64,000 nt of DNA from the NCBI GenBank assembly GCA_029556615.1, contig JAKQDD010000210.1, positions 1 through 64,000 on the forward strand. Direction: 5' to 3'. The stretch comes from Verrucomicrobiota bacterium (GTDB lineage: Bacteria > Verrucomicrobiota > Verrucomicrobiia > Limisphaerales > J093). Of the stretch, positions 11,638 through 61,467 are shown piece after piece (position 1 is the stretch's first letter; each line of letters starts with the position of its first letter). Both the position numbers and the translations under genes were made by a program. The notes below the pieces were generated by a model. That model saw only the letters and a program-made list of their open reading frames with translations. It was not told the DNA's origin and did no database searches.

Positions 11638-12494
11638 ACTCGAAAGAACAGGTCCGCGCGCAACTCGAGCGCTTCGCCCGCGAGGGCACCCTGGCGGGAA
11701 CCGCCTGCAGCAAGGCGCTCCGCACCCGGCTCCTGCCGCTGCTCGCCAGCGGTATCGTCGCCGAGGAACGCGCCGGCGCCGGCCGGCGCTTCGTCCTCGC
11801 CGATCGCCAGGCGTTCGCTCGATTCCTCGCCCGCCAGTTCCCGGCCGCCGACCTGCCCGGCCCGGCGCTCTCCCGCGTGACCGGTCTCGGCCGGTTCCGC
11901 GACTCGAAGGCCTACTCGAGCGACACCCCTGAGATCGTCGCGGTGCGCGCCGCGCGCGACGTCCTTCTGGATCCCGACGGTCAGCCTGTGGCCGCCGCCG
12001 CCGCCACCGCCCATCACGGGGTCTTCGCCTTCCTGCTTTCAGCCGGGTCCAGGTACCGCCTCGAAGGTCCGACGGCGCTGATCGAGAATCCGGCGCTCTT
12101 CACCCAGTGGGAACGGCTTGGATTGCCGGTCGGGCTGGCCCTCTACAGCCAGGGCAAGATCTCCGGCCGGCTTCTTGATTGGCTCGTCCGGCAGACAGCC
12201 TCTCGGTTCACGTTGCTGCACCTGCCGGACTATGATCCCGCGGGCCTTGTCGAGCACGAACGCCTTTGCCGGCGCTTGGGCTCCCGGGTCGAGCTGTATT
12301 GGCCGGAGGATCTCGAGGCCCGTTTCCATCGCTACGCCAACCGATGGCTGCTGGATCGGCCCCGCCAACGCGCGGCGCTGGCCCGGCTGCGCGCAGCGGC
12401 GTCCCCGGCCGTGCGTGCCGTCGTGGCCCTGATCGACCGCTCCAACGGCGGGCTCGAGCAGGAAGCCCTGCTCCTGCCCGCCGGGATCGCCTAG
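11634..12494 (+). CDS. jetD: JetD/MksG-like Toprim nuclease subunit, compact form
   Basis: A protein of 286 aa with a GTG start at 11634 overlapping the jetC stop. Residues 1-75 form a small winged-helix-like part (VRAQLERFAREGTLAGTACS). The C-terminal half is Toprim-like: the acidic residue in TALIENPALF (E151), the metal-binding pair in LLHLPDYDPAGL (D199, D201), and a terminal GLEQEALL motif seen in JetD. Known JetD proteins are about 380-420 aa, so the N-terminal region is reduced. In Wadjet systems this subunit cleaves DNA trapped by the extruding complex, which removes small circular plasmids. The stop codon TAG is part of the CTAG edge of repeat element A. Confidence 0.8.
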   Translation: MNSKEQVRAQLERFAREGTLAGTACSKALRTRLLPLLASGIVAEERAGAGRRFVLADRQAFARFLARQFPAADLPGPALSRVTGLGRFRDSKAYSSDTPEIVAVRAARDVLLDPDGQPVAAAAATAHHGVFAFLLSAGSRYRLEGPTALIENPALFTQWERLGLPVGLALYSQGKISGRLLDWLVRQTASRFTLLHLPDYDPAGLVEHERLCRRLGSRVELYWPEDLEARFHRYANRWLLDRPRQRAALARLRAAASPAVRAVVALIDRSNGGLEQEALLLPAGIA

Positions 12495-12668
12495 CGAGGC
12501 GCGCCTCAGACCTAACGAAGTCCGCGATCCCATGAAGCCTTCCTGCCTTTCCGGACCCTCTCTTCCGCGCCTCGCTCATTCAGATCCCTCGACGGAGGAA
12601 GGGGAGGCCTGGAACGGCAGGGACCCAACTTGACCTGTTGACCCCATATTCCCCAAGTCGAGGGCTAG
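12491..12668 (+). repeat. Composite inverted-repeat element, copy A (modules 2+1)
   Basis: The element is bounded by CTAG at 12491-12494 and 12665-12668. Module 2 (12492-12576) has termini TAGCGAGGCGC and GCGCCTCGCT. Module 1 (about 12581-12667) ends in the inverted pair CCCTCGAC and GTCGAGGG. The internal sequence matches copy B closely, including the string TGGAACGGCAGGGACCCAAC. The left CTAG contains the jetD stop codon. It has no coding capacity. It fills most of the gap before the next gene. Confidence 0.9.
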
Positions 12669-12722: not shown

Positions 12723-14084
12723 ATGACCGCAACGGCGCACCGCAGGGTTCTGCTGATGATCGGGCTCTGGCTTGGAGGCTTGACGGCTTGGTCCGACGAC
12801 TGGCCGCAATGGATGGGACCTCGCCGGGACGGGGTTTGGCGTGAGACCGGCATTCTCGAGCGGTTCCCGGACGCCGGGCTCGTGCCGCGATGGAAAACGG
12901 CCATCCGCGGCGGGTACGTCGGACCAGCGGTGGCGGGCAACCGGCTGTTCCTGCTTGATCGCCAGGCGGGCACCATGCCCGAGCGCAAGAAGGGGGAGAC
13001 CAGCCTGCCTCAGATCCCGGGGAACGAACGCGTCCTTTGCCTCGACGCGGCCACGGGCGCCCGGGTGTGGGAGCACACGTACGACTGCGCCTATCGCATC
13101 GACTATCCCGCCGGCCCGCGCGCCACGCCGGTGATTGCGGACGGGCGTGTGTTCACGCTGGGGGCCATGGGTGATCTCCGCTGCCTTCGGGCCGGGGACG
13201 GCACGCTGGTCTGGTCGCGGCAACTGCTGATGGAATTCCAGCTGTCGGATCCCCCGCTCTGGGGGTGGGCGGGACACCCGGTGCTGGACGGCAACCGTCT
13301 GATTTGTCTGGTGGGCGGCCCCGGCAGCGCGGTGGTGGCCTTTGACAAGGAGACCGGCCGCGAAGAGTGGCGCGCGCTGACAGCCGTCGAGATTGGCTAC
13401 GCGCCGCCGGCCCTGTACACCGTGAACGGCCGGCGCGAGCTGATCGTCTGGCACCCCGACGGCGTCGCCGGGCTGGCTCCCGAGACCGGAGCGGTGTTGT
13501 GGTCACACGCCTATCCCGTGGGCGGCAAGCCGCAGCGGCCGGAGGTGGCGATTGCCATGCCCCGGCTCGAGGGCGATCGGCTCCTGCTGACGTCGTTCTA
13601 CCAGGGCTCGCTCCTGTTGCAGCTGGCCGTCGACGGTCCGAAAGTGGTTTGGAACCGCCGCAGCACAAGCAAGTCCACGATGAACGACGGCTTGCATGCG
13701 GTGATGACCACGCCGCTCTTCAAGGATGGCTTCATCTATGGCTGCTGCGGCTTCGGCGAGCTGCGCTGCCTCGATGCCGCGACGGGCGATCGGCGCTGGG
13801 AGACGTACGCCGCCACCGGCGGCAAGAAGGCGTTCTTCGGCACGGCGTTCCTGGTCGAGCACGAGGATCGGGCCGTCGTGTGGAACGACCAAGGGGAGTT
13901 GATCCTCGCGCGGCTCGAGCCCGAGGGTTACACCGAGATCAGCCGCACCCGGCTTCTCGAACCGCTTGAGAACACCCGTGGCCGGACGGTTCTCTGGTGT
14001 GCGCCCGCCTTCGCCAATCGCTGTGTCTACGTCCACAACGGGCACGACCTGATCTGCGTCTCGCTGGCGGCCGGCCCTTCCTAG
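12723..14084 (+). CDS. PQQ-binding-like beta-propeller exported protein
   Basis: A protein of 453 aa with an N-terminal signal peptide (VLLMIGLWLGGLTAWSDD). The mature start DWPQWMGPRRDGVW is typical of the BamB-like, PQQ-type propellers common in Verrucomicrobiota and Planctomycetota. Repeated blade motifs are visible: LCLDAATGARVWEH, VVAFDKETGREEW, AGLAPETGAVLWSH and LRCLDAATGDRRWE. These are structural WD-like/PQQ blades and give no proof of cofactor binding. The protein is presumably periplasmic or surface-located; substrate unknown. The TAG stop is the edge of repeat element B, and a related propeller gene converges on the same element from the other side. Confidence 0.88.
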   Translation: MTATAHRRVLLMIGLWLGGLTAWSDDWPQWMGPRRDGVWRETGILERFPDAGLVPRWKTAIRGGYVGPAVAGNRLFLLDRQAGTMPERKKGETSLPQIPGNERVLCLDAATGARVWEHTYDCAYRIDYPAGPRATPVIADGRVFTLGAMGDLRCLRAGDGTLVWSRQLLMEFQLSDPPLWGWAGHPVLDGNRLICLVGGPGSAVVAFDKETGREEWRALTAVEIGYAPPALYTVNGRRELIVWHPDGVAGLAPETGAVLWSHAYPVGGKPQRPEVAIAMPRLEGDRLLLTSFYQGSLLLQLAVDGPKVVWNRRSTSKSTMNDGLHAVMTTPLFKDGFIYGCCGFGELRCLDAATGDRRWETYAATGGKKAFFGTAFLVEHEDRAVVWNDQGELILARLEPEGYTEISRTRLLEPLENTRGRTVLWCAPAFANRCVYVHNGHDLICVSLAAGPS

Positions 14085-14261
14085 CGAGGCGCCGCCTCAG
14101 ACCTAACGAAGTCCGCAAGCCCAGGAAGCCTTCCTGCCCTTCCGAACCCTCTCTTCCGCGCCTCGCTAATGTAGAGTCCTCGACAGAAGGAGGGATGGCC
14201 TGGAACGGCAGGGACCCAACTTGACCTGTTGACCCCATGTTCCACAGGTCGAGGACTCTAG
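14081..14261 (+). repeat. Composite inverted-repeat element, copy B (modules 2+1)
   Basis: This is the best preserved copy. Module 2 is 14082-14168 (87 bp, termini TAGCGAGGCGC and GCGCCTCGCTA). A 3 bp spacer follows, then module 1 at 14172-14260 (89 bp, perfect 13 bp termini TAGAGTCCTCGAC and GTCGAGGACTCTA). CTAG occurs at both outer edges (14081-14084, 14258-14261). The left CTAG carries the stop of the upstream plus-strand gene and the right CTAG carries the stop of the minus-strand gene, so one element ends two convergent genes. Confidence 0.95.
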
Positions 14262-15553: not shown

Positions 15554-15715
15554 AAACGCCCTCGATTGCCCGGAGAGAGTCGGCGATCGACAGACCGCTG
15601 GCCAAGCAAAATCGGGATGGGACAACCGCTTGTGGGGCGGGCTCGACGGGGGGGTCTGAGGCGGCGCCTCGCGACCATTGCACTCAGCGGCCGGTCTTGG
15701 CACACTCGTGGCGTC

Positions 15716-18550: not shown

Positions 18551-18620
18551 GAAATCTGCGCTCCGCCCTGAATCGGCGAGGGACCCTCCCCGCACAGATT
18601 CGGGCCGGATCGCCGATTGG
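18551..18620 (+). repeat. Module-3 palindromic repeat, copy 1
   Basis: A 70 bp stretch with inverted arms AATCGGCGA (18571-18579) and TCGCCGATT (18611-18619). A closely related copy is at 47853-47922, with matching strings such as GCTCCGCCCTGAATCGGCGA. It overlaps the start of the 90 bp tandem repeat. It may be another small interspersed element or a hairpin at the transcript end of the upstream gene. Confidence 0.75.
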
Positions 18621-18770
18621 GGAGGGGCGGGAGAGCCGGCTTCGCGAACCGATTGTGAGCCTGTCACCTTGTCACCCCCCCGCACAGATTCGGGCCGGAT
18701 CGCCGATTGGGGGGGGGCGGGAGAGCCGGCTTCGCGAACCGATTGTGAGCCTGTCACCTTGTCACCCCCC
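18591..18770 (+). repeat. Two tandem copies of a 90 bp unit
   Basis: Units 18591-18680 and 18681-18770 are nearly identical; the visible difference is GGAGGGGCGG against GGGGGGGCGG. Each begins CGCACAGATTCGGGCCGGAT and ends CTGTCACCTTGTCACCCCCC. With module 3 this fills the 319 bp between the glycoside-hydrolase-like gene and the pseudopilin gene. No gene is seen here. Confidence 0.95.
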
Positions 18771-30975: not shown

Positions 30976-31812
30976 ATGATACGCGTCAGGAACATACTGC
31001 ATCCCTCCGACTTAAGCGAGGCCAGCGAGATCGCCTTTGCCCATGCGCTGAGAGTGGCGCTCACCGCGAAGGCCCGGCTCAGCATGCTTCACATATCCCC
31101 CGACCCGCATTCGGCGTCGCATCGGTTTCCGGGCGTTCGTGAGACTCTGGTCCGGTGGGGGGTGCTGCCCGCAGACTGCGACAAGGATGCGGTCACGGGG
31201 CTGGGGATTCAGGTTCGCAAGATTGTGCAGCGGGACCGTGATCCCGCGCCATCCGTGCTCCGGTTTCTGAGCAAGCATCCGGCGGATCTGATCGTGATGG
31301 CCACGAGCCAGCAGCCGGGCCGGGTCGGATGGCTGCGCCACTCGGTGTCGGAGCCCATCGCCCGGGGCGCGGGTCAGATGACCCTTTTCGTTCCCCACGG
31401 CGTCGAGGGCTTTGTCGGCTGCAAGGACGGTTCGGTCACGCTCCGTCGCGTGCTCCTGCCGGTTGACGAGGATCCTTCGCCGCGGCGGGCGACCGAGATG
31501 GCCGTCCGGACGGTGCGGGGTCTGGGTTGTGCCGGTGCCGCCTTCACCCTGCTGCACGTGGGCAATAAGGAGGCTTTCCCCCCGCTCGAGCAGCCCAGGG
31601 ACGCGACAGGAGAATGGAAGACCGTGGTCCGGTCGGGGGATGTGGTCGAGGAGATCCTGCGGGCGGCCGAGGAGACCCAGTCTGACCTGCTGGTGATGAC
31701 CACGGCGGGGCGCCAGGGCATTCTGGATGCCTTGCGCGGCACGACGACGGAACAGGTGCTGCGGCGGGTCCGATGCCCGCTGCTGGCCGTCCCGGCCTCG
31801 GACGACGACTAG
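30976..31812 (+). CDS. Tandem universal stress protein
   Basis: A protein of 278 aa with two Usp domains. Domain 1 opens IRVRNILHPSDLSEASEIAF and has ADLIVMATSQQPGRVGWLRH. Domain 2 opens LRRVLLPVDEDPSPRRATEM and ends DLLVMTTAGRQGILDALRGT. The G-2x-G-9x-G(S/T) nucleotide motif is recognisable in the second. It is cytoplasmic, probably ATP- or AMP-binding, and linked to stress survival in other bacteria. The TAG stop is the CTAG edge of repeat element C. Its promoter is not clear. Confidence 0.9.
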   Translation: MIRVRNILHPSDLSEASEIAFAHALRVALTAKARLSMLHISPDPHSASHRFPGVRETLVRWGVLPADCDKDAVTGLGIQVRKIVQRDRDPAPSVLRFLSKHPADLIVMATSQQPGRVGWLRHSVSEPIARGAGQMTLFVPHGVEGFVGCKDGSVTLRRVLLPVDEDPSPRRATEMAVRTVRGLGCAGAAFTLLHVGNKEAFPPLEQPRDATGEWKTVVRSGDVVEEILRAAEETQSDLLVMTTAGRQGILDALRGTTTEQVLRRVRCPLLAVPASDDD

Positions 31813-31897
31813 AGTCCTCGAAGGGGGGCCTGGGGTTGGAACGGCAGGGCCCAAACTTGACCTGTTGACCCCATATTCCACAAGTCGAGGACTCCAG
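31809..31897 (+). repeat. Inverted-repeat element, copy C (module 1 only)
   Basis: The element starts CTAG (31809-31812) with TAGAGTCCTCGA and ends AGTCGAGGACTCCAG, so the right edge is CCAG instead of CTAG. Internal strings match copies A and B (GGAACGGCAGGG, TTGACCTGTTGACCCCATAT). No module 2 follows. It lies exactly at the stop of the universal stress protein gene, ahead of the ATP synthase genes. Confidence 0.92.
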
Positions 31898-45380: not shown

Positions 45381-45561
45381 CTAGAGTCCTCGACTCTTGG
45401 ATTGTGTGGTCAAGAGGTCAGGTTCTGGTCGGTCCGGTTTCAAGCCTCCCCTCCTTCCGTCGAGGACTCTATATTAGCGAGGCGCCAGATGGCGGGCCGG
45501 GAGGGACCGCAGGGTCTTCATGAGCCTGAGGACTCGACCGGGTCTGAGGAGCGCCTCGCGA
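45381..45561 (-). repeat. Composite inverted-repeat element, copy D (modules 1+2)
   Basis: In plus-strand order: CTAG at 45381-45384, module 1 at 45382-45471 (termini TAGAGTCCTCGAC and GTCGAGGACTCTA), a 3 bp spacer, module 2 at 45475-45561 (TAGCGAGGCGC to GCGCCTCGCGA). It is the reverse of copies A and B. Module 2 lies inside the end of the histidine kinase gene, and the kinase stop is in the inner edge of module 1. The outer module-2 edge has lost CTAG (CGCGA). Confidence 0.93.
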
Positions 45562-47852: not shown

Positions 47853-47957
47853 GAAATCGGTGCTCCGCCCTGAATCGGCGAGGAGCTATCCCCGCGCAGA
47901 TTCAGGACGGATGGCCGATTGGCTTTGGGACTTCGCCGGGTCTGAGGCGCGCCTCGC
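47853..47957 (+). repeat. Module-3 repeat joined to a module-2 end (element G)
   Basis: 47853-47922 matches the module-3 sequence at 18551-18620 (GCTCCGCCCTGAATCGGCGA). Directly after it, 47923-47957 matches the right part of module 2, ending TCTGAGGCGCGCCTCGCA. It fills most of the gap between the response-regulator start and the Gly/Pro-rich protein stop (47965). The two repeat families are thus fused here. Confidence 0.75.
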
Positions 47958-56106: not shown

Positions 56107-56287
56107 CTAGAGTCCTCGACTTGTGGAACGTGTGGTCAACAGGTCAAGTCTGGTCCCTGCCGTTCCAGGCCATCCCTCCTTCCGTCGAGGACTCCACATT
56201 GGCGAGGCGCGGAAGAGAGGGTGGGCAGGCACAGCAGGGTCTTCATGAACCTGAGGACTCGACTGGGTCTGAGGCGCGCCTCGCTAG
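56107..56287 (-). repeat. Composite inverted-repeat element, copy E (modules 1+2)
   Basis: In plus order: CTAG (56107-56110), module 1 at 56108-56196 (TAGAGTCCTCGAC to GTCGAGGACTCCA), 3 bp spacer, module 2 at 56200-56286 (TGGCGAGGCGC to GCGCCTCGCTA), and CTAG at 56284-56287. Both modules are 89 and 87 bp as in copy B, but reversed. The right CTAG contains the stop of the minus-strand DHOD-like gene. With 122 bp of flanking sequence it fills the 298 bp gap. Confidence 0.94.
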
Positions 56288-60955: not shown

Positions 60956-61467
60956 GGTTTCTTGGCTCACAAGTTCACACCCTCCGGGCTCAGCCTCCCC
61001 CGCGGCCGACCGGGCCGGTCGTCGTATTCGTCGTATCCATCCGGGCGCAACCCACCGCCCCGGCCGCCAAGGCCGGGGTGCCGCGGCTCCGGACAGCAAT
61101 CACGATCCCGGGGACGGGCCGGATCGGCTCCACATGCTTTGCCCACTGCTTTGCATTTTTTGCGCTGCCCCGACCGTGGAGCCTCCGCCGCGGGCGCGAC
61201 CCCGGCCGTAACCCGCGCCGGGGGCGCGTCGTCTCATCTGCGGAAATCGGAGGCGTTCGACGCATGTCAGTCTGTGAGCGTGGTGGACTTGATGCAGCGG
61301 CTTCAGCGGGCGTTCGAGGGCGAGAGCCCCGGCGCTGGAGTGTTCGGCTTGTGGAATGGGCGGTCCACAGGTCGTGTCCTCGTCGCCGCAAGTTGGTATT
61401 GTCGGAGCCCGCGGGAACCCCTACGCTCCCGCGCACGTTCGATGCCAGAGCGAAGCCAACATCCCGC
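60956..61467. other. Divergent gap between nifJ and the TolC-like gene
   Basis: The 512 bp contain no gene that is supported. Part of 61341-61388 (GGCTTGTGGAATGG, GTCCACAGGTCGTGTCCTCG) resembles a decayed, reversed copy of repeat module 1 (compare copy E). GC-rich runs such as GCCGCCAAGGCCGGGGTG occur. Promoters for both genes must be here but none can be fixed with confidence. Confidence 0.5.
61341..61388 (-). repeat. Degenerate module-1-like fragment (element H)
   Basis: GTTCGGCTTGTGGAAT, GGGCGGTCCACAGGTC and GTGTCCTCGTCG parallel the order in reversed module 1 (GTCCTCGACTTGTGGAAC and GTGGTCAACAGGTCAAGT). Ends and CTAG edges are absent. It may be an old copy, but chance likeness is possible. 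Confidence 0.35.

Follow-up and report, generated by a model that had tools for sequence, protein, structure and literature searches.

A high-copy two-part repeat family of a Verrucomicrobiota genome lies at CTAG sites and frequently adjoins genes at their amber stop codons

The genome of this Verrucomicrobiota bacterium carries a short, two-part repeat whose edges read mostly CTAG and often coincide with the amber stop codon of an adjoining gene. We consider it probable (roughly 0.6) that these repeats are a high-copy family of non-autonomous DNA transposons that insert at the TA within CTAG, as IS630 does. An initial annotation of the DNA had suggested MITE-like elements with a CTAG target and an IS5-type mechanism; the mobile, MITE-like family and its target are supported by our analysis, and the IS5-type mechanism is not. 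The stretch of DNA that was annotated (the window) is bases 1 to 64000 of contig C100, which belongs to a draft genome of 7.2 Mb in 260 contigs. All five copies that had been annotated in the window are present, four with two parts (178 to 181 bp) and one that is a solo second module. These copies, their fragments, and the adjoining stop codons are as follows.

12491..12668, + strand: composite copy A, module 1 plus module 2
12492..12494, + strand: TAG at the left edge of copy A, which forms the stop of a JetD-like gene (DUF7281)
14081..14261, + strand: composite element, both edges CTAG; the convergent PQQ-type propeller genes on both sides stop on the element
14082..14084, + strand: element-edge TAG that ends the left propeller gene
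14258..14260, - strand: element-edge TAG that ends the convergent propeller gene
15653..15672, - strand: left-end fragment, 20 bp
31809..31897, + strand: solo module 2, 89 bp; edges CTAG (left) and CCAG (right)
31810..31812, + strand: TAG at the edge of module 2, stop codon of a universal stress protein gene
45381..45561, - strand: composite element; CTAG at the module 2 edge, module 1 edge degenerate (GTCG inward)
47898..47957, - strand: left-end relic of the repeat family, joined to another repeat, 8 bp past a gene end
56107..56287, - strand: composite element, both edges CTAG
56284..56286, - strand: TAG stop of a dihydroorotate dehydrogenase-like (DHOD-like) gene, at the left (module 1) edge
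61335..61377, + strand: right-end-like sequence, diverged, 70% identical

Module 1 extends from GCGAGGCGC(N)GCCTCAGACC, which follows CTA, to GCGCCTCGC, which is followed by TAA, and module 2 extends from GAGTCCTCGAC, which follows TA, to AACTTGACC...GTCGAGGACTC, which is followed by TAG. Each module has inverted ends; these had been described as perfect, and the inner ends are imperfect in some copies. The two outer ends of the composite, left and right, do not form an inverted repeat. At the right edge of copy A, 3 bp are lost, and GGGCTAG stands in place of GGACTCTAG. The outer edges had been annotated as CTAG; two of them, as listed above, read GTCG and CCAG. All five of the annotated amber stops are real ORF ends, and all of them lie on element edges. 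The window also contains another repeat family, a 90-bp tandem repeat that is 98% identical (18585 to 18764 and 18551 to 18620/47853 to 47922), in which GTGAGCCTGTCACCTTGTCA is similar to the sequence that precedes two truncated RAYT genes (L077 and L078).

In the whole genome, a pattern count found 216 ends matching CTAGNGNCCTCGA and 3 matching the reversed pattern; exact left ends numbered 217, compared with 0 for the control. The module termini that had been annotated thus occur more often than by chance. A profile search of a 1.54-Mb sample identified 140 copies (81 with both ends, 36 with only the left end, 21 with only the right end, and 2 internal), which is ~650 copies when scaled to the whole genome. 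The sample is composed of twelve contigs picked as long or as holding good copies, so its copy density may run slightly high; this choice was independent of stop codons. The 140 copies are short and noncoding and are at unrelated sites, and their flanks are random past CTA. They include full copies, solo module 1 copies, and solo module 2 copies, some with CTAG-type edges, as well as mosaics of the element with other repeats.

Several unusual forms were observed. Two minimal copies of ~40 bp (G000 C12:109949 and C4:124882) have the left end fused to the right end via GTCGAG and represent either repeated deletions or a minimal unit that is itself mobile. In a longer variant, the right end is followed immediately by a third palindromic part (CCACGCCTTTTCCCAGACTGCGCTGGGAAAA...) rather than by CTAG (G000 C12:182554, C29:74726, C6:34002, and C122:3382; also L078). 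Left-end pieces of ~40 to 70 bp span the gap from the end of one gene to the start of the next (G000 C12:24363, C12:28856, C12:169562, C204:40109, C204:65749, and C4:1518). Several of these pieces have the TAG stop of the upstream gene on the element edge, and for some the start codon of the next gene appears to come from the element's own CATG.

The conservation of each edge position in the sample locates the boundary of the element. Read from the outside inward, the left edge is C 85%, T 87%, A 84%, G 98%, C 98%, and G 96%, and the right edge is C 79%, T 79%, A 80%, G 93%, A 96%, and G 99%. Mutation of a palindromic CTAG alone would be expected to hit the first C as often as the last G, which is not what we see. 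CTAG therefore does not behave as a single unit: the last base resembles the element, the first three bases resemble the flank, and the boundary is inside CTAG. The simplest reading is that an element G...C was likely inserted at C-TA-G with duplication of TA, although some of the decay of TA could come from mutation of CTAG itself. A joined-flank search gave one weak case of a partial empty site, and none from a near relative; the site is in a diverged paralogous repeat (81% identity) that is collinear with a single CTAG-sized target. This site supports a probable short duplication and is compatible with both 2 and 4 bp.

The same profile bears on the mechanism that had been proposed initially, in which the repeats are MITEs of the IS5 family (IS5 or IS427/IS870 group) that duplicate the 4-bp CTAG. 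CTAG dominates the edges and is present on both sides in 32 of the 81 full copies, which agrees with this proposal, as does the CTAG requirement of IS870. A bacterial MITE with a 4-bp duplication of CTAG or YTAA is also known (MITEPsy1; PMC3189936). However, the difference between the element-like fourth base (98% and 93%) and the flank-like first base (85% and 79%) does not fit a 4-bp duplication, from which the edge pairs TTAG/CTAG and GTAG/CTAG that occur here would also be unexpected. DUF4096 has no match in the host genome, and no IS5-type transposase carries these ends at the loci inspected. Based on these results, we regard an IS5-type origin as unlikely.

Instead, we favor an IS630-like mechanism, although we do not claim membership in IS630. 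We favor it because IS630 moves into the TA of CTAG (according to the title of the 1991 paper by Tenzen and Ohtsubo that is cited in PMC2170065) and because an IS630-family copy (L250, 916 to 2056), from a delta-proteobacterial genome in which the left end also occurs, has GTGCTTAATTG...CAATTAAGCAC between CTA and TAG. The edges of this IS630-family copy (CTA, GTGC...GCAC, TAG) have the same anatomy as those of the repeat, with different ends, and the edge profile of the repeat in the sample agrees with an IS630-style CTAG preference. The L250 copy sits in CTAG, has long inverted ends, and is a neat control for TA-in-CTAG insertion. By an IS630-like mechanism, a unit that begins with G and ends with C would enter the TA of C-TA-G, and TA would be duplicated, as described for IS630. 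The target TA and the first G of the element would again form TAG, and the opposite side would read C-TAG. Since TAG would be re-formed on both sides, an amber stop at the target would survive insertion from either direction. Selection would purge copies inside genes, and copies would gather at noncoding CTAGs, a large share of which would be amber stops. We infer that the copies were mobile in trans in the past and that the enzyme was of the DDE/IS630 type. Two observations argue against an IS630-like mechanism: the outer ends of the composite are unequal, unlike normal IS630 inverted ends, and no DDE_3 transposase is bounded by element ends at the inspected loci.

A search for a transposase with the same ends, which the initial annotation had suggested, found no such partner among the IS630 DDE_3, DDE_Tnp_1, DUF4096, Y1/RAYT, and IscB (RRXRR) families at the loci inspected in the draft genome and in carriers. 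Element ends bound none of the host loci (two DDE_3, two DDE_Tnp_1, and five Y1_Tnp), none of many such loci in carriers, and none of the IS630 loci in ten other genomes. The IscB (RRXRR) search gave no match in the host or in any control genome, and its absence may thus be only apparent. No convincing long-spaced pair of left and right ends was found. One candidate autonomous copy, with 2 kb between element pieces (C12:159558-161571), was rejected; by eye, its long ORF resembles a secreted propeller-type protein rather than a transposase.

The Y1 loci are relevant to a further explanation, which is that the repeats are REP/REPIN/BIME-like elements that a Y1 (HUH, RAYT-like) transposase mobilizes in single-stranded form, XTAG taking the role of the GTAG tag. 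Y1_Tnp genes are present in all 14 of the element-carrying genomes tested, the left end is a tetranucleotide followed directly by a palindrome (CTAG-C-GAGGCGCGCCTC), the modules make hairpin pairs and form mosaics with other repeats, and GTAG REPs have been reported as a source of TAG stops for adjoining ORFs (PMC3733652). However, none of the RAYT loci inspected in the host and in the carriers is bounded by element ends, with a copy merely nearby in two cases, and the host RAYTs already have GTAG REPs of their own. In addition, XTAG is present on both edges, TA decays faster than G, the tag is mainly CTAG rather than a 5' GTAG or GTGG at the hairpin foot, and orientation has no association with GC skew. 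We therefore consider movement by a RAYT-like enzyme doubtful, but less so than the IS5-type proposal.

In order to count docking at stop codons, we called genes with a custom codon-usage gene caller (1,069 genes in the 1.54-Mb sample) and considered the interval from -300 to +200 bases around the element edge. For the 105 genes that read into an edge, the stop is exactly the edge TAG in 56, is upstream of the edge in 39 (in 13 cases by no more than 20 bases), and is inside the element in 10. Of the 66 genes that extend to the edge, ~22 would be expected to be in frame if frame were irrelevant, compared with the 56 observed. Where both edges are CTAG, a stop existed at the target prior to insertion, and the initial view that gene ends are kept by frequent exact docking at preexisting amber stops agrees with these counts. 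In the window, the universal stress protein has a domain that is complete to 5 amino acids before the edge stop by its family model, and the DHOD-like protein, which stops at the edge, is full length compared with NF005741. These are the two of the five docked window genes with C-terminal family-model coverage, the other three being without an informative C-terminal model.

Docking was compared with the target sites that are available. Docked elements make up 43 of 98 CTAG-edged elements (44%), while stops account for 31 of the 109 noncoding CTAGs that are free (28%), which is an odds ratio of 2.0 (p = 0.029, uncorrected). We conclude that the docking excess beyond target choice is modest and that most docking follows from the rare CTAG target. 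CTAG is strongly depleted: the sample contains 337, whereas the counts of CTA, TAG, and TA predict 1,077. Of the 337, 81 are inside genes, and many of the CTAGs that are left in the sample are at element edges. The initial suggestion that stops are the main free sites is weakened, since stops are the 28% minority of free noncoding CTAGs given above and are favored ~twofold. About half of the noncoding CTAG targets (~98 of 207) are occupied, and 44 of 80 stops that read cTAG adjoin a copy. Elements are between convergent genes in 35 of 132 cases; convergent spacers are 13% of intergenic bases, and this is about twice the length-based expectation. In other genomes, an ORF of at least 100 codons is in frame with the edge TAG at 20 of 62 left ends, compared with 13 and 12 for the other frames, and ~14 of those 20 ORFs have a coding-type third-position GC signal in a reading of the table by eye.

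Another explanation is a conserved structured RNA or transcript-end element whose mobility is only apparent. The two strong hairpins (z of -3.7 and -2.9) and the compensatory changes in the module 2 stem between genera of the host's order fit this idea, although such covariation is also expected for co-recognized transposon ends, and both strands of the element fold well. Stem departures in the genome are 17 G-T compared with 18 A-C; such equal numbers are expected from neutral decay of DNA, and there is thus no sign of selection on an RNA strand. The flanks are random, the orientation is mixed, and searches gave no Rfam match, only sub-threshold chance matches to microRNAs. A terminator scan found no terminator-like site at the elements, which, together with the lack of strand asymmetry in the stems, speaks against the transcript ends that had been suggested initially. 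We consider an RNA function without mobility very improbable.

Outside the host, Verrucomicrobia, including Opitutaceae, and the Gammaproteobacteria Thiosymbion and Thiohalocapsa have an identical left end, CTAGCGAGGCGC(N)GCCTCAGACC. It is also present without change in an Acidobacteria genome, a Bryobacterales genome, a Planctomycetota genome, and a delta-proteobacterium. It is absent from all 288 other genomes drawn from the host's phylum, and a search of plasmids gave only chance-level matches. Carriers with named contigs are mostly Verrucomicrobia; L119 and L083, of which one is a named carrier and the other is a genome of the host's family, hold the same element copy. Exact left ends number 17 in the delta-proteobacterial bin, 12 in the Opitutaceae bin, and 8 in Thiohalocapsa, and single-copy occurrences are weaker than these multicopy ones, since metagenome bins may hold stray contigs. 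Within the host's order, the layout of left end, inner GCGCCTCGCT, TAGARTCCTYGA, AACTTGAC, and right end is kept at 167 to 183 bp, and the interior differs. Patchy presence combined with near-identical ends points to probable horizontal spread of the element among bacterial phyla. We tentatively raise the possibility that this is an undescribed transposition system, in which a two-part unit, with a left end that is a near-invariant hairpin of 22 bp and a right end that is conserved but unequal to it, has spread horizontally over several phyla as a CTAG specialist that uses amber stops as safe harbors.

These results put figures on the cheap spread of a mobile repeat to hundreds of copies, where the cost is low because the target is rare in genes and because the protein end is unchanged after insertion at amber stops. 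The conserved ends (TAGCGAGGCGCGCCTCAGACC plus the right end) are bait for the missing transposase, and the repeat offers a naturally occurring system for site-specific insertion at the ends of genes.

IS870, of the IS5 family, depends on CTAG and creates a TAG stop at its own edge; that stop serves the ORF of the IS itself, whereas here host stops are preserved. MITEPsy1 of Pseudomonas syringae, a ~100-bp element that inserts at CTAG or YTAA (PMC3189936), is also non-autonomous with a CTAG target, but it has a 4-bp duplication and ISPsy2-like ends, and it lacks the two-part structure. IS630 (Tc1/mariner-like) and its MITEs share with the repeat a target TA in CTAG and, probably, TA duplication, but the repeat has unequal outer ends, which are unlike those of the IS630 copies seen. 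GTAG REP/BIME elements with RAYT, which are reported in Verrucomicrobia and Planctomycetes and whose termini often provide flanking ORFs with their TAG stop (Di Nocera et al. 2013; PMC3733652), are likewise short, high-copy hairpin repeats with tags beside palindromes. In contrast, the repeat described here is ~180 bp and two-part, has CTAG at both edges, has no RAYT bounded by its ends at the loci inspected, and has a left end that is near-invariant across phyla. The principle of amber-stop docking has thus already been described for GTAG REPs, and what is new is a CTAG-specific two-part family, numbers for its occupancy, and the cross-phylum conservation of its ends.
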